Virus record (IMG/VR): IMGVR_UViG_3300021963_000573
Location: 1-26,138 of that record
Strand: one strand, 5' to 3'
From: a virus
DNA length: 26,138 nt
In this document: piece by piece, positions 4,615 to 13,048 of the stretch
Numbering within the stretch: position 1 is the stretch's first letter
Layout: the number at the start of each line of letters is the position of its first letter
Program-made: the position numbers and the translations under genes
The notes under the pieces: model-generated
What the model was told of the DNA's origin: nothing
The model's input: only the letters and a program-made list of their open reading frames with translations
Databases searched by the model: none

Positions 4615-6021
4615 TTATGCTACCCGAACAAGGTTTCTGCGCAGGGGTTGGGACCATTTGCTTGAGCCGGTGCTGCCGTACATCCCCATCACCGCATCAC
4701 TGGCAAATGTCAGGACAAAGGCATCGGCCTTGTCAGGGCTTGGCAACCCCCGCCTCTTGATCTCGTCTTTCCCCTCGATGGCGATCTTGCCGTTACTGGT
4801 GAATGAGTACCGCACTGTGGCCAGTTCAGCGATCAGCACCTCATCCTTTGGCATCTTGCAGTCCCGTGCCTCAAGCCACGCCCTTGCCTTGTACCAAAGC
4901 TCTGCCTTCAGATTCCTGTAGGTGTTGCCCATGGCTGGGCTTTCAGACACATTGATCCCTCTGGCCGGCAGGCCCAGCTCTCTGAGTCGGTCCACCACGC
5001 CAGCGCCTAATCCAATCGAATCGACCAAAATCTCTTTCGGCTGCTGGCTTGGTGGCAGCGCCTGGTACTCGGCCACCACCGCACCAGTCAATTGCATCAG
5101 GTCTAAATTCTTCCATGTCCGGATGTTCTCAGTCACCGCATTCCCTTGGCGCTTGCACAGCGCTGACCTGTCACTTCCAAACCGCGCCACATCCAAGCCC
5201 CAAAGCATGGGCGCATAGTCACTGGGCGCGACATCCCGATTCACCGCGCTTTCGAGCAAGTCCATGGCAATGACAGTGTCGTCATCGCCCTTGGGGAATT
5301 CACCGATCACCCTGATCCGGTAGACGTTACTTTCCTCGCCATAGCGCATGGCCATTTCTTTGACGTACTCATCTGAGACACGCGGAGAGTCAGTGCAGGC
5401 CACTTGAAACGTGGTCCACTCATCGGCCAGGCGCGTGTGGGTGTCGTAAAAGAACCCACTGCTTCGCACGGGATTGCCCAGTAACAGCGTCACCGCGTTG
5501 TGGCCAGACATACTTCCAGCCGCAGCCTCAAACACTTGCTCTGGCACACCAGAAGCCTCATCGGCCACCAGCATGACATTCTCTGAGTGAATTCCCTGCA
5601 AAGCCTCTGGCTGCTCGGCCCGTGATGTCCTGGCTGAAATAAACATCTCAGTCGGGGCAGCATTGAACTCAATCCTCTCTTGCTTGACAGTCAAGAGACC
5701 TTGAAGTGGGAGTGGCATCGCATTGATCCACCTCTTCAGCTCTGCAAACATCGCGTCATAAAGCTGAGAGCTTGTCGGTGCAGTCACCACCACCTTGACG
5801 GGCGATCTGGTCATAAAGTACCAGAGCATGGCCCAGCTGCTTGCCGTACTCTTTCCCACCCCGTGGCCACTCCTGACACTTATCTTCCGGTCCCCACGGG
5901 CAATCGCACCAAGAAACTTCACTTGCCACGGGTCAGGGTCCACCCCCAAAACCTCCCGCACAAACAAAACGGGGTCCGGCTGATACCGGTCCACCCACTG
6001 AGCAAAGACATTTTCTTTCAT
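4615..6021 (-). CDS. terL: Terminase large subunit (TerL)
   Basis: This 468-residue motor-nuclease pumps DNA into the prohead and cuts it. The ATPase domain has Walker A SGHGVGKST (51-59), Walker B VMLVADEA (149-156, with Asp154-Glu155) and the coupling motif LLLGNP (179-184). The nuclease domain has an RNase H-like set of acidic residues: Asp277 in GLDVARFG, Asp334 in LVDSIGLG, and Asp430/Asp433 in SPDKADAF. The length is normal for a compact TerL. The ATG overlaps the stop of the 67-residue gene (6018-6021). TerL is separated from the TerS candidate by a chain of tiny genes and a non-coding block, which is less usual than adjacent terminase genes. Confidence 0.95.
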   Translation of the reverse strand: MKENVFAQWVDRYQPDPVLFVREVLGVDPDPWQVKFLGAIARGDRKISVRSGHGVGKSTASSWAMLWYFMTRSPVKVVVTAPTSSQLYDAMFAELKRWINAMPLPLQGLLTVKQERIEFNAAPTEMFISARTSRAEQPEALQGIHSENVMLVADEASGVPEQVFEAAAGSMSGHNAVTLLLGNPVRSSGFFYDTHTRLADEWTTFQVACTDSPRVSDEYVKEMAMRYGEESNVYRIRVIGEFPKGDDDTVIAMDLLESAVNRDVAPSDYAPMLWGLDVARFGSDRSALCKRQGNAVTENIRTWKNLDLMQLTGAVVAEYQALPPSQQPKEILVDSIGLGAGVVDRLRELGLPARGINVSESPAMGNTYRNLKAELWYKARAWLEARDCKMPKDEVLIAELATVRYSFTSNGKIAIEGKDEIKRRGLPSPDKADAFVLTFASDAVMGMYGSTGSSKWSQPLRRNLVRVA

Positions 6022-6805: not shown

Positions 6806-6836
6806 GGTTTGTTAGTTGTGAGTTGATGGAGATTAG

Positions 6837-6866
6837 ATTGTGATCGGTTTTTGCGTTTTATGTCAA
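6837..6866 (-). promoter_or_regulatory. Sigma70-type promoter of the terminase/head operon
   Basis: On the minus strand a perfect TTGACA -35 hexamer (6861-6866) is followed after 18 bases by CACAAT (6837-6842, 4 of 6 to consensus). The A/T-rich sequence upstream (6871-6899) could act as an UP element. Start would fall about 25 bases before the first gene's ATG at 6805. This is the only promoter candidate seen between the TerS candidate and the left edge. Confidence 0.5.
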
Positions 6867-6870
6867 CTAC

Positions 6871-7073
6871 CTCAAAAGTTTTTTAAAAAATTTTTTTTGT
6901 AGGTGTTTAGTGCCGCCACAGTCGCCCCCGCCAAACCGGCCAAGGGGGGGTCGCGGCCACCGACCGCCAGCCGGCCACCGCTGGGTTATCCACGGAATTT
7001 GGCCAATCTTATCCACAGATTCCTGTTCATAAGTAAGTCTGTAATACTTTGATGCACTTAATTCTGTGGATAA
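6871..7073. other. Candidate replication origin or packaging (pac/cos) region
   Basis: This non-coding block has an almost pure A/T tract (6871-6899), a GC-rich repeat block (6911-6985) with two CCGGCCA copies (6936 and 6971), two GGCCACCG copies 18 bases apart (6955 and 6973) and a run of seven G (6944-6950), then DnaA-box-like 9-mers: TTATCCACG at 6986, TTATCCACA at 7009 and TGTGGATAA at 7065. An unwinding tract beside DnaA boxes is the usual origin design. Location between TerS and TerL and the GC-rich repeats would also suit a terminase recognition site. The rest of the gap, 7074-7133, shows nothing clear. Confidence 0.5.
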
Positions 7074-7133
7074 CTCAATGTCAACTTAACATAATGGACA
7101 CTGTATAAAGTGACTGCAATCTTTGGTATTCAT

Positions 7134-7649
7134 TTATGCAGAATCGTCTAGTGATACGACAGTGCGCTTGCGCAAGGCATCGAGCGCCATGCTTCCCAGG
7201 TCAATGTTGACCAATGGAGCCTGCTTGTCACCATACTCGTCTGGAGCCTGCTTTGAGGCCAGCCAGCGCCTCGTATCGACCCGTAGCTTGGCCACTTGCG
7301 CCTCTTGAGGGCTTGCGCTGTCTGCAATTTCGAGGGTCTGCTCTGCTAAACTTCTCCCACCTCGCGTGCGTGCGCGTGCGAGGAGTTCTCCCCGCTTCGC
7401 ATCTTTTTCGATCCATTTGTAGAAACCGCCAATGCTTATGTCCAGAGACTTAATCACTGAATCGGTTGTTTTCCCTTGTGAGATATGGTCAAAGAGCATA
7501 GCCTCACCACCGAATGCGTGAATTTTCTTATTGATTCCTGACATCTCTTTGCGATCAATTGCAGCCTGGTCACGCAATGTGAGCTGGCGCTCGACAATGT
7601 TGTCGGCAAGTTCACTCAATGTGTTTGCACTCTTCTTTGGTTTTGCCAT
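7134..7649 (-). CDS. terS: Terminase small subunit-like DNA-binding protein (TerS)
   Basis: The 171-residue protein has a helix-turn-helix-like stretch around residues 55-85 (QGKTTDSVIKSLDISIGGFY, then KWI), a basic RARTRGGRSLAEQTLEIAD segment near 92-110, and AKLRVDTRRWLASK before PDEYGDK near 118-142. The RA-R...LAEQxLEIAD...LRxDTRRWLASKxxPxxYGDK pattern is one I associate with small-terminase-like proteins, which recognise the packaging site and load TerL. The ATG lies 38 bases inside the end of the VRR-NUC gene and has GAGG 9 bases before it. Sequence after the gene is the non-coding block proposed as origin or packaging site. Confidence 0.75.
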   Translation of the reverse strand: MAKPKKSANTLSELADNIVERQLTLRDQAAIDRKEMSGINKKIHAFGGEAMLFDHISQGKTTDSVIKSLDISIGGFYKWIEKDAKRGELLARARTRGGRSLAEQTLEIADSASPQEAQVAKLRVDTRRWLASKQAPDEYGDKQAPLVNIDLGSMALDALRKRTVVSLDDSA

Positions 7650-8010
7650 TCAGATATTCCTCGATTGATTTAATTGCTTCAGCAGCTGATCTGGCGACCA
7701 CTGCTCGATACCCTTTTGCATTTAACTGCAAATTTACAGCACTTTGTTTGCTTGAGACCACACCGGCCTTGGTCTTCATTTCCACAAATAACGCATGAAA
7801 GCCGTTTTTAGGCTCCAAGACGCATAAATCTGGCATCCCTGCCAATACCCCTTCACTGTGCAGCCTAACGCGCTCTTGAGGGCTTCTATCGCCTCCATTG
7901 GGTATTGCTGCAATGATGATGTCCGGATAGAACGCTCGAAAGTGCTGGACCACCTTGACTTGGTCAATGTGTTCAATGCTTTTTCGTTTGCGTTTTAAGT
8001 CAACCACCAT
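7612..8010 (-). CDS. VRR-NUC domain nuclease
   Basis: With the ATG at 8010 the product is 132 residues, the normal size of phage stand-alone VRR-NUC (PD-(D/E)XK superfamily) nucleases. PNGG (37-40), GMPD (58-61), FVEMKT (76-81) and SKQ (87-89) give the catalytic set Asp61, Glu77, Lys79 and Gln89. The family cuts branched or structured DNA and usually sits in replication/recombination modules. An in-frame ATG at 8133 would add 41 residues fully overlapping the upstream Cys protein gene, so the internal start, a 16-base overlap, is preferred. The N-terminus KRKRKSIEHIDQVKVVQHF matches the family's usual beginning. Confidence 0.88.
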   Translation of the reverse strand: MVVDLKRKRKSIEHIDQVKVVQHFRAFYPDIIIAAIPNGGDRSPQERVRLHSEGVLAGMPDLCVLEPKNGFHALFVEMKTKAGVVSSKQSAVNLQLNAKGYRAVVARSAAEAIKSIEEYLNGKTKEECKHIE

Positions 8011-8339
8011 TCCTCGGATTCTACTGCCGAGGGTTTGGTCTGGAACATGTGGCATCGGTGCTTGATGTCGGTCGGGAATGCGGCCAGTCCTGTTTGGCCG
8101 CACTGGTGTTCGGACCATGTGACTGTTGCCCATCCATTGCGAACCTTTGCCTGGTCAAACATCCACTGCAATGGCTTTGAGTTGACCTTTCGGTGTCTTT
8201 CCATCTGCTCGGCTGGCATGGACTGCTTCATTTCCACTTCTACCGCTTTACTGCACTGGTGGCAGAAAACGCGCTCATCTTCGACCAATTTGTCGGAATG
8301 TGCATAACCTGTGGATAACTGCGTAACTTGTTGGACCAT
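7995..8339 (-). CDS. Hypothetical 114-residue Cys/His protein
   Basis: I do not recognise the family. A CHQC pair lies at 26-29, and CGQ at 80 and HRC at 94-96 provide further possible metal ligands, so zinc binding is plausible. It is polar, Met- and Trp-containing, and has no membrane segment. A clear GGAG ribosome-binding site 7 bases before the ATG and its position between the primase-helicase and VRR-NUC genes support it as real. Its first codons overlap a TGTGGATAA 9-mer (8310-8318). Confidence 0.7.
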   Translation of the reverse strand: MVQQVTQLSTGYAHSDKLVEDERVFCHQCSKAVEVEMKQSMPAEQMERHRKVNSKPLQWMFDQAKVRNGWATVTWSEHQCGQTGLAAFPTDIKHRCHMFQTKPSAVESEEWWLT

Positions 8340-8360
8340 TGCTTTTCTCCAAAAAGGGTC

Positions 8361-8544
8361 AAAAGTAAACCGGTATGACCAAAGGAAATCTACCGGTTTA
8401 CCTGTTTACTTTTCACTATCCCAAAACTGACCAGATTGGCCTGTGGATAAGTGGGTCTACGACCCCCACTTATACCAACAGACCTGCCATTATCTAAACC
8501 GGTATACCTGTTTACTACCGGTTTACTACCGGTTTACCGGTTTA
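8361..8544. repeat. Iteron-like TACCGGTTTAC repeats with DnaA-box 9-mer and hairpin
   Basis: The gap between the primase-helicase gene and the 114-residue gene holds at least five copies or part-copies of GTAAACCGGTA or its complement TACCGGTTTAC. Two face each other (8365-8375 and 8391-8401), one partial copy is at 8495-8504, and two to three overlap in tandem at 8517-8544, reaching the primase stop codon. Between the groups lies an exact TGTGGATAA (8442-8450) leading into a 9-bp hairpin (8447-8473). Iterons with a DnaA box are typical of replication origins; operator sites for a phage regulator are the alternative. Confidence 0.65.
8447..8473. other. 9-bp perfect hairpin beside a DnaA-box 9-mer
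   Basis: ATAAGTGGG (8447-8455) pairs exactly with CCCACTTAT (8465-8473) around a 9-base loop. The left arm shares ATAA with the DnaA-box-like 9-mer at 8442-8450. Neither side has a following T-run, so it is not a standard terminator. A single-strand initiation or primase loading structure is an inference from its place among the iterons. Confidence 0.5.
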
Positions 8545-10713
8545 CTTTATTTGAACCCATCCGCTGCTTGCTTGGTCCATTGCAAAGCGCTGAAAGATGG
8601 CCGCGCTGACGGCCTTTCTTGCGTAGCTTTGGTCGGCCATTGGCACTGCTTGGTAGATGTCAGCCCACTCCAGCTGGTGCATTGATTGCAGTTCTTTTGG
8701 CACGGCTGGCCTGCCAGAGCCTCTGCGCATAATGACCGCGCCTTTGGCATTGATGATGGACTGGACAAAGTTGCAGGCAGCGTCTGCGGCATCTTGGACT
8801 TGTTGCTGGCGCTTGTCATTCATTCGGTCATTGGCTGCCTGTCTTCGGTCTTCTTCTGAAGATACTTGTGGGACCACCAGCAGCACCATCTGCTCTTGGA
8901 TATCCCCGTCTTCATCCAGCACAGTATCGGCAAAGACATCTGACTGGAATTTGATTTCTCTGAAGTTGGGCTGGTAGCGCGTTTTTACTAAGCGCATATA
9001 ACGGGTCTTGGATTCGTCTTCAAACAGAATGCCGGTGAGGGTTGCATCGCCTGTGAATGCAGAGGCTCCACGGGCTGTGGCATCTGAGTCTGACTTGGAT
9101 ATGGTCTTGTTGGTGTGGGTAATGATGCAGACTGGCGTGTCCAGTTGGATATAGATGGTCTGCTTTAGGGCTGCAATATAACTACCCACTTCTGAGTTGT
9201 CATTCTCATTATCAATATCCATTGTGGCGTTTGCAGTATCTAATACCAATAATGGCCGGACATTATCTATTGTGTGGTGAATCACATTATGTGCAAGCAT
9301 AAGTAAATCTTTCACATTAGACCTCTTGGCATCGATGATGACAAACCATTGGGATAATGCTTCAGCGCTGATTCCATAATGCCGTGCATACCCAGTCAGG
9401 GTTCTTTCGACCTGGTCCGAGTCTTCAGTCACGATGATTGTTTTGCGTTTCTTGGTGGCAGTAAGTTCGCAGTCCTTGGCCTGCAAGCCGGCCATGACCA
9501 TGCACAAAGATATGACCGCTGTGGTCTTACCTATGCCAGGCTGACCGGCCAGCACCATAAAGCTGTGCGCCCAGAAACCTTTGACCATATAGCGAATGGG
9601 CCTGATCTGGCCAATGGTCAATGTGCGCTCTGGCCAGCCTTGTGGGGCTTGGTCCAGAGCTGGCATGGTCACAGACTGGATCACCGCAGCAAAGTCTTCC
9701 ACCGCTGATTTGCGCTCGGCCTGCTTGGTTGGAGCTTCCCACCCATTGTCCTTGGCGTGTTTAAAGAGTGTGCCAATGCCAACACCTTTGCCCTGATGAA
9801 AGCTCTTCCAGTGGACTTCAATGTCTTTCGTGCCTGCAAACTTGTTGCCAGCCATGGACCATGTCATCCATGGGCCGAGACCAGCCTCTCCGAATTCGGT
9901 GTGCAGCGCTTGGCCCAGCTCAATCCACTGGTCGTAATCGCAGTCTGGGCTGATATGGTGCAAAGCCTTGACCGCACGATCAAGATCGCTGTCATCCAGT
10001 CTTGAGCCTAATTGGGTGAAGTCAAATGATTGTGTAGGTGGTGCGACTGGCTTTGGCTCTTGGAGCTGGTGCTGCTCAATGATGCCCCACTCTTGGAGCA
10101 AATCGTAGAGGTCCACGGCCTCTTGGAATTCACCGGCCACTTGGTTGCCACTGAGTAACACTGACTTGCCGGCACTGTTTGGCAGGCCAAATACTTCAAG
10201 CTCTTGGCCACCACCCAGCTTGTACTTGGGCAGCACCTGGTCTTTGACTGCTGGCGCTTTGACCCATAGGAACACATGGCGGCCACGGCCAGAGACAGAG
10301 ACCTCGGTCAGCATGTTGTTGGTCTTGACATACTTGGCCATGCGCTGAATGGCCACGTTGGTCGGGCCAGAGGCGTGCTTCATGTCCACATCAAGGCAAA
10401 CCAGAAAGTTTCCTGATGCGCTGATGATGGGGCGCTGCTGCACTAAACCCAGATACTGGCCATGAGGGGCTTGCTCCATGGCCCAAATGTCTTCAGCGTT
10501 GTAGAGATCGTTTGGGTCTGTATCACGGGCCACGCCTTGGCCAGATCGCTTGTAGGGGATTTTCTTTGAGCCTTGCAGGGCAAAGGTACAGAACACCGCA
10601 TCGGGGGCCACAGCGCCTATTTTGCAGGCAATGCTTTGGGACTGTTGAAACGTGTTGTTTTGGGGTGTTTCAGTTATGATTGACACTGAAATTCCTTTAG
10701 GTTGGGGTTTCAT
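8542..10713 (-). CDS. Primase (AEP/prim-pol-like) fused to RecA-like helicase
   Basis: The 723-residue protein combines priming and unwinding. The N-terminal domain has archaeo-eukaryotic primase-like motifs: CLDVDMK (107-112), SGRGRHVFLW (141-150) and ELEVFG (171-176). A PriCT-type helical domain follows at about 240-325 (LDRAVKALHHISPDCDYDQW, then IELGQAL). The C-terminal RepA/KaiC-like ATPase has Walker A GQPGIGKTT (390-398), IIVTEDS (426-432), Walker B PLLVLDTANA (487-496) and IITHTNK (530-536). AAGG stands 9 bases before the ATG. The gene ends inside the iteron block. Whether the N-terminal domain also polymerises DNA cannot be told; no separate DNA polymerase is visible in this window. 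Confidence 0.9.
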   Translation of the reverse strand: MKPQPKGISVSIITETPQNNTFQQSQSIACKIGAVAPDAVFCTFALQGSKKIPYKRSGQGVARDTDPNDLYNAEDIWAMEQAPHGQYLGLVQQRPIISASGNFLVCLDVDMKHASGPTNVAIQRMAKYVKTNNMLTEVSVSGRGRHVFLWVKAPAVKDQVLPKYKLGGGQELEVFGLPNSAGKSVLLSGNQVAGEFQEAVDLYDLLQEWGIIEQHQLQEPKPVAPPTQSFDFTQLGSRLDDSDLDRAVKALHHISPDCDYDQWIELGQALHTEFGEAGLGPWMTWSMAGNKFAGTKDIEVHWKSFHQGKGVGIGTLFKHAKDNGWEAPTKQAERKSAVEDFAAVIQSVTMPALDQAPQGWPERTLTIGQIRPIRYMVKGFWAHSFMVLAGQPGIGKTTAVISLCMVMAGLQAKDCELTATKKRKTIIVTEDSDQVERTLTGYARHYGISAEALSQWFVIIDAKRSNVKDLLMLAHNVIHHTIDNVRPLLVLDTANATMDIDNENDNSEVGSYIAALKQTIYIQLDTPVCIITHTNKTISKSDSDATARGASAFTGDATLTGILFEDESKTRYMRLVKTRYQPNFREIKFQSDVFADTVLDEDGDIQEQMVLLVVPQVSSEEDRRQAANDRMNDKRQQQVQDAADAACNFVQSIINAKGAVIMRRGSGRPAVPKELQSMHQLEWADIYQAVPMADQSYARKAVSAAIFQRFAMDQASSGWVQIK

Positions 10714-11821: not shown

Positions 11822-13048
11822 TTAAATAATCTGATTGACGACATTGAGCTTCTTTAAAACCTTGGCCAGCACATTGTGGTCTAGTGATGCCTTGATGGTC
11901 AGAATGTAGATGACGGGTGGAATGCCGGACTTGTTGATGTTCTCGACTCGGCTTGATGCCTGCTCCAGTGCCGAGGTGGACCATGTGCATTCGACAAAGA
12001 CAATCGTGTCGGCAGCCGATAGGTCCACACCTTCAGACATGGCGGCAATGTTGCCAATGATGCATTTGGTCTGGCCAGACTGAAAGTCTGCAATGGCTTT
12101 GTCGCGCTTGGCACGTGACGTTTCACCCGTAATAACTACGGGTTTGTGGATAAATAGCAGTTTTTCCAGCTCGGCCACCACATCTTTGTGGTGCGCAAAG
12201 ACCACCACCGGCTCGTTGGCCTGAAGCAAGTCATCGATGAATTCACTGGCAGCCTTGACCTTGCGCATACCGGCCTCACGCATGATCTCGGCCAAGCCCT
12301 CAAAGGCCATGAGCGCGTTGGGGTTGGCCATCAAGGCATCGGCATCAAAGGTCTGCTCTCGCTTGTCATTGGGCAGATCAAAGGTGATCAGAGACACTTG
12401 TGGGTCTTTGTAATCTTTGAAGATGGCTTCCTTCTTTCTGCGCAGCACATGGGGCTTCATCAGCTCTTTGAGTTCGACCAGGTTAGACGCGCCACTGGTG
12501 TCTAGGCCCCATGGCGCCAAAAACATCTTTGCATATCTGGCTGCAAAGTCGTACCAGCCGCCTCGGTAGATGCCAAGGCCGTGCAAGATGGGCCACAGCT
12601 CGATGGGCCGATTTGGAATTGGCGTGCCCGAGCAGGCATAAACATAATCAATCTTCTTCATGGCCAGCATTGCAGCCTTGGTCCTTTGGGCCTTTGGATT
12701 CTTAATTCTGTGGCACTCATCCAAAACTAGGGTCTTATATCTGTCAACGTGTGTTACACCATACTGCAAGACATCGTAGTTGATGATAGTCACATCTGCA
12801 CTATTTACCTCTGAAGCCTCGCGTTTTCCATTGATGACATGGACCGATACATTGGGCGCGAGCTTGCTGAAAGCCGCTTCCCAGACTGTCTTGGCAATGG
12901 CTGGGCAGACGATGAGGGCCGGTAGGTTTTCTAGGGCAGCAGCTGCTGTGGGTAGCGTCTTACCAACCCGTGGCTGGTCGGCCAGTATGGCCCTGCGCCT
13001 AGACAGCAAGAAGAGCTTGGCCTCTTGCTGATGGGGGAATAACTGCAT
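11822..13048 (-). CDS. SNF2-type superfamily 2 helicase/translocase
   Basis: The 408-residue protein is a short phage SNF2-like ATPase. Motif I is ADQPRVGKT (23-31), motif II is VLDECHRIKNP with DECH at 110-113, motif III is CSGTPIPN (139-146). The second lobe has VVVFAHHKDV (281-290), VITGET (305-310), MSEGVDLSAAD (337-347) and an arginine-finger motif QASSRVENIN (363-372). The usual RIGQ after motif VI is replaced by NKSG. Phage members are thought to remodel or translocate on DNA in replication or recombination. GAGG 8 bases before the ATG and a TATGAT -10 element upstream suggest it is the first gene of the leftward replication operon. Confidence 0.9.
   Translation of the reverse strand: MQLFPHQQEAKLFLLSRRRAILADQPRVGKTLPTAAAALENLPALIVCPAIAKTVWEAAFSKLAPNVSVHVINGKREASEVNSADVTIINYDVLQYGVTHVDRYKTLVLDECHRIKNPKAQRTKAAMLAMKKIDYVYACSGTPIPNRPIELWPILHGLGIYRGGWYDFAARYAKMFLAPWGLDTSGASNLVELKELMKPHVLRRKKEAIFKDYKDPQVSLITFDLPNDKREQTFDADALMANPNALMAFEGLAEIMREAGMRKVKAASEFIDDLLQANEPVVVFAHHKDVVAELEKLLFIHKPVVITGETSRAKRDKAIADFQSGQTKCIIGNIAAMSEGVDLSAADTIVFVECTWSTSALEQASSRVENINKSGIPPVIYILTIKASLDHNVLAKVLKKLNVVNQII

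Follow-up and report, generated by a model that had tools for sequence, protein, structure and literature searches.

To our knowledge, dependence on host DnaA has been described for only a few phages. Phage P4 has two separated replication sites, ori and crr, both of which bind the phage initiator. SPP1 likewise has two, oriL and oriR, which also bind the phage initiator (PMC3485210). In the lambda ori region, host DnaA sites lie within the phage replication region and possibly act via transcription; two box-like sites are situated near pO (PMC3985674). Iteron plasmid origins commonly carry DnaA boxes, and RK2 oriV, P1 oriR and pSC101 share Rep-specific direct repeats, DnaA boxes and A/T-rich DNA (PMC4980987). 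The pRN1 origin is located just 3' of the primase-helicase gene and contains an essential stem-loop, and RSF1010 oriV combines iterons with primase-recognised hairpins; RSF1010 is described as priming at its hairpins, and the same has been proposed for pRN1 (PMC4234260).

The window discussed here (the whole stretch of DNA analysed) is a 26,138-base virus fragment from IMG/VR. Its annotated genes lie mostly on the minus strand, where the SNF2-type helicase, exonuclease, primase-helicase, small ORF, VRR-NUC nuclease, Sf6-type TerS, a gap, small ORFs, TerL and SU10-type portal are listed. A first-pass annotation proposed a replication origin or packaging site in the gap (region B); a second element, region A, is found beside the primase-helicase gene (Table 1).

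As in pRN1, region A is placed just 3' of a primase-helicase gene and has a stem-loop, and as in RSF1010 it has iterons and a hairpin; unlike in both, DnaA boxes are added, and the helicase domain is of the AAA_25 type instead of the SF3 type of pRN1. In contrast to the iteron plasmids, the carrier is a phage without integrase, ParA or resolvase matches, its Rep is a primase-helicase, and most DnaA boxes belong either to the start of a coding sequence or to an array at a distance of 1.2 kb. The two separated sites recall P4 and SPP1, but no A-type iterons were found in region B, whereas in those two phages both sites bind the phage initiator. Lambda has two box-like sites; here several conserved boxes form two clusters.

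Relatives of the phage are plentiful in metagenomes (IMG/VR). The closest named record, MW202879, stems from Manatee Spring, for which reason the group is taken to be mainly freshwater. DNA searches of the gap against named phages and plasmids gave no match, and an Rfam search returned nothing. When genome contigs were searched for prophages and hosts, just two MAG contigs came up, and a B-like array was present in neither of them. In one Gammaproteobacteria MAG contig with TerL 76% identical (L171), tandem AACTGCACC-type repeats occupy positions 95-135, just upstream of TerS. A phage-plasmid lifestyle is unsupported: profiles for integrase, partition and resolution (PF00589, PF13614, PF00239) had no match in 23 records, some of them fragments.

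Table 1. Positions in the window of the features of regions A and B and of the neighbouring genes
Feature	Position	Strand	Remarks
Region B, non-coding gap separating TerS from the small ORFs that precede TerL	6806-7133	-	conserved in 119 loci holding TerS and TerL
Motif CCATTATGTTAAGT	7084-7097	-	near-invariant in all relatives; directly follows TerS, upstream of the boxes
DnaA box B1, TTATCCACA	7065-7073	-	
DnaA box B2, decayed, TTATGAACA	7024-7032	-	TTAT[G/C]CACA in almost every one of 88 distinct gaps
DnaA box B3, TTATCCACA	7009-7017	+	inverted partner of B2 within conserved TTATSCACAGGAATCTGTGGATAA
DnaA-box-like B4, TTATCCACG	6986-6994	+	one change; CTGTGGACAA in some relatives
GC-rich block with C7 run	6899-6980	-	C7/G5 inverted repeat at 6925-6950
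A/T tract CAAAAAAAATTTTTTAAAAAACTTTT	6874-6899	-	possible unwinding element or UP element
Promoter-like TTGACA-18-CACAAT towards TerL	6837-6866	-	10/12; equally frequent in shuffles; kept in one main allele of the two
Region A, candidate iteron origin at the 3' side of the primase-helicase gene	8241-8544	-	divergence follows that of the primase (r = 0.92)
Region A iterons, 10 bp	8535-8544, 8527-8536, 8516-8525, 8505-8514, 8495-8504 (+), 8399-8408, 8391-8400, 8366-8375 (+), 8241-8250		
Hairpin AAGTGGGGGTC-GTA-GACCCACTT in region A	8449-8471	-	compensated changes in relatives
DnaA box TTATCCACA in region A	8442-8450	-	overlaps hairpin foot
Tandem DnaA boxes TTATCCACAGGTTATGCACA	8299-8318	-	within first codons of ORF 7995-8339
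Primase-helicase (PriCT_2 + AAA_25)	8542-10713	-	domain matches; presumed Rep reading the iterons
Small ORF	7995-8339	-	tandem DnaA boxes in its first codons
VRR-NUC nuclease	7612-8133	-	
Terminase small subunit TerS (Sf6 type)	7134-7649	-	
Terminase large subunit TerL	4615-6021	-	

The origin candidate beside the primase-helicase gene

Region A adjoins the primase-helicase stop, about 1.2 kb from region B. Multiple short direct repeats next to the presumed Rep gene are the arrangement of an iteron-type origin: directly after the stop come four to five iterons of the form TAAACCGGTA, with some variation, at intervals of 8-11 bp, and a further pair with an inverted copy lies beyond the hairpin. 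The Leu-Ser-Thr codons that form the tandem boxes at the start of the small ORF are exactly TTATCCACA in 70 of 70 regex matches; the use of one codon set throughout therefore points to constraint on the DNA. The first-pass annotation listed neither the iteron array (8241-8544) nor the boxes at 8299-8318 and 8442-8450, and it lacked the weaker boxes of the array in region B.

The iterons change allele type with the primase (CCGGTA/GCGGTA, CGGAA, GGGACG and GACCGGAC), and in other lineages an unrelated hairpin is found at the same place. Distances between copies of region A correlate with those of the primase (r = 0.92, 0/300 permutations) and not with those of TerS, 1.2 kb away (r = 0.03), in tests based on permutation only, which do not model shared ancestry. 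Such covariation is what one would expect if Rep and iterons form a cognate origin, and it suggests that each primase reads its own repeats. The correlation is partly linkage, since region A and the primase C-terminus are adjacent. In a PDB search with the primase, nothing beyond a short stretch (residues 177-213) matched, and it did so to repeat proteins, which is taken as uninformative. The loci L128, L135, L066 and L138 have another type of origin after the primase stop, in which GGGACG or GACCGGAC repeats stand around a perfect hairpin (e.g., TATGCACACTTTTGTGTGCATT) without DnaA boxes.

The DnaA-box array in the gap

The gap is non-coding, as the varying length of its C-run among relatives shows. 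Its position between TerS and TerL had been given correctly, but small ORFs separate it from TerL. The three DnaA-box-like 9-mers reported there (two exact, one with one change) were recovered at their places, as were the G7 run (6945-6951) and the paired CGGCCACCG and CCGGCCA repeats. The A/T tract reaches the reported length of about 29 bases if single G interruptions are allowed, but only 20 A/T bases are uninterrupted.

A box cluster this dense (at least three boxes with at most one mismatch, at least two of them exact, within 100 bp) occurred in none of 1500 simulated Markov-1 sequences of the same length, and five exact boxes are present in the window against 0.19 expected. Several 9-mers that fit TTWTNCACA and cluster more than chance allows are the arrangement of a DnaA-box array; such 9-mers recur in the 88 distinct gaps of relatives from IMG/VR. 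Across ten near-complete relatives, 36 of the 39 exact TTATCCACA sites fall in region A or B. An isolated exact box in the SNF2-type helicase gene of the window (12145-12153) has no counterpart position in ten relatives with listed boxes.

Across 119 loci whose contig carries both TerS and TerL, most boxes keep fixed offsets past the TerS stop (60/116/139 or 45/101/124), also where TerS identity is 46-65%. The aligned gaps follow one order, namely CCATTATGTTAAGT, TTATCCACAGA, TTATSCACAGGAATCTGTGGATAA, weaker GTGGACAA-type boxes, the GC block and CAAAAAAAATTTTTTAAAAAA. The 88 distinct gaps show hardly any variation in the central pair, TTAT[G/C]CACAGGAATCTGTGGATAA; conservation of the gap in relatives is thereby confirmed, and the original observation comes out stronger than it was put. 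Frequent changes in the pair are only G/C at box position 5 and A/G at the outermost (last) base of the other box. Position 5 is the N of the DnaA consensus TTWTNCACA, where variation is tolerated by DnaA. The B2 copy of the window itself is decayed relative to the other gaps.

The boxes could merely resemble DnaA boxes and serve as operators of a phage-encoded regulator, for which the central pair, a near-perfect palindrome, and a small HTH protein of the phage (13706-13906) provide some grounds. This reading is very unlikely: single and tandem direct copies also occur, the commonest substitution falls at the DnaA-tolerant position, and the nine bases exactly match the classical DnaA box. DnaA fits as a monomer binder because the boxes occur singly, in tandem and inverted. 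Titration of host DnaA by region B, in the manner of datA, would slow host replication as phage copies rise and agrees with the presence of boxes of exact consensus sequence in a genome that reaches many copies. It is equally improbable, since there is only a handful of sites per genome, and it accounts neither for the conserved order nor for the GC block and A/T tract.

The GC block is about 80 nt long in relatives, with a C-run of mostly C7-C10. Its hairpin folds better than column-shuffled alignments (-12.8 vs -2.7) without covariation and is only suggestive. In the gap of one locus (L033), an insertion of about 35 nt separates the last DnaA box from the GC block.

Among the viral loci listed with the palindromic pair, all carry TerS or TerL of this phage group. 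Region B keeps its boxes in four distinct genomes whose region A has an iteron type without DnaA boxes. The more distant MW202879 has region A without region B; region B is therefore not required for this replicon type in general.

Packaging, transcription and unwinding at the gap

A terminase pac or cos recognition site, the second function proposed by the first-pass annotation, would suit a gap situated between TerS and TerL, with GC-rich inverted repeats and an A/T tract. The TerS genes of the group allow this to be assessed. Between phages with TerL 98% identical, the N-terminal half of TerS is swapped or highly diverged and the C-terminus is kept. This half is presumed to bind DNA as in Sf6, and the swap suggests an exchange of the packaging-specificity domain. 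The N-terminal half varies most (down to 27/78 identical) while region B is unchanged, and distances of the boxes, GC block and promoter part do not follow TerS (r = 0.00, 0.08 and 0.01), as against r = 0.53-0.68 for TerL, in tests that would miss a TerS recognising structure only. Contig ends form no sharp pile-up in the gap (assembled contigs, not raw reads), and near-complete contigs end all round the map. The packaging proposal is thus not supported, and a pac or cos site is the least probable of the functions considered, with very little chance of being correct.

The relation to TerL bears on the main rival, which is a serious one. Bound DnaA could repress or activate a late promoter for the small ORFs, TerL, the portal and the structural genes, with the A/T tract as its UP element. 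A promoter-like match faces TerL directly downstream of the A/T tract and is conserved in one main allele, a second promoter-like allele being present in others; the divergence of region B follows TerL (r 0.5-0.7), and lambda offers a precedent in the DnaA footprints near the pO promoter (PMC3985674). Linkage alone could explain the tracking of TerL, however, and promoter matches number 4 against 3.7 in shuffles. More than 100 bp, including the GC block, lies between the boxes and the promoter, and a third lineage (L052/L138) has no clear promoter there. DnaA-responsive control of the late operon is accordingly regarded as possible but doubtful.

Region B could also be a complete oriC-like second origin, working without the origin in region A: DnaA by itself would open the A/T tract there and load the host helicase. 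The order of boxes, GC block and A/T tract, the retention of region B where region A has no DnaA boxes, and a skew jump between the two regions are in line with this. The A/T tract, however, is about 85 bp from the last box, compared with a maximum spacer of 16 bp in the basal unwinding system (PMC8287927). Trio-like repeats stand beside a box in only 27 of 88 gaps, which is above the shuffle rate (13/440) but not conserved, and the basal unwinding arrangement of oriC (at least three trios within 16 bp of a box) is not a feature of region B in these gaps. Among 369 genomes sampled from one class, that of the MAG, none had the palindromic pair at a likely oriC. A self-sufficient origin of this kind is improbable. 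Capture of a host oriC was rejected, as these 369 genomes gave a single near match to the pair, at an ordinary locus.

The skew itself was followed at third codon positions in addition, as a net trend dominates the simple cumulative GC skew. In genes on the TerS strand the third-position skew stays between about -0.12 and -0.21 over the interval -7 to -1 kb. Across regions A and B its successive values are -0.21 (-2 kb), 0.00, 0.06 and +0.31 (+1 kb); it is near 0 over TerS and +0.31 at TerL. The jump spans A-B, where gene direction is unchanged. The skew change looked for at the gap is thus present, but its support for a nearby origin is only moderate because the pattern is not a clean two-phase one, other switches exist, and the composition of TerL may contribute to the jump.

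A proposed two-part replication region

The best reading of these patterns, all of them comparative, is that region A represents an exchangeable Rep/iteron origin and region B a constant host-DnaA array. The gap would then contribute the host-DnaA sites to a phage replication region made up of two parts, with core initiation most likely at region A, a tentative proposal whose probability falls a little short of even. The origin that had been placed in the gap is upheld as far as the boxes are conserved and confined to A and B at a skew transition, but the iterons, hairpin and DnaA boxes of region A make the better core-origin candidate. The distance of 1.2 kb between the regions, which exceeds the usual spacing of DnaA boxes and iterons in plasmids, speaks against the two-part arrangement, as do the lack of region B in MW202879 and the roughly 85 bp between the A/T tract and the last box.

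In the proposed mechanism, the phage primase-helicase would bind its cognate iterons at region A, open the DNA, load, and prime at the adjacent hairpin with the local DnaA boxes. Host DnaA would assemble on region B in an ordered array (the inverted pair with flanking and weaker boxes) facing the GC block and A/T tract. There it could help opening or replisome loading, or set the timing or direction of replication. Involvement of host DnaA, as had been suggested, gains indirect support: the boxes show conservation, with most of their variation at positions that DnaA tolerates, and they are near-exclusive to two spots at the skew transition. From this we infer that DnaA is the binder of region B and that region B acts in replication; the phage probably recruits the host initiator.

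It is conceivable, though unlikely, that this is a lytic group in which initiation can proceed from either of two systems: a Rep/iteron/hairpin origin that can be swapped and, at 1.2 kb from it, an oriC-like DnaA origin that stays constant and is fired by the host initiator. If so, lineages could exchange initiators and yet keep a host-driven start. With a widespread freshwater phage group that has near-base-perfect DnaA arrays and primase-matched origin repeats, one could test directly how phage and host initiators share the work, and its natural variants, with and without DnaA boxes in region A, provide a ready comparison.
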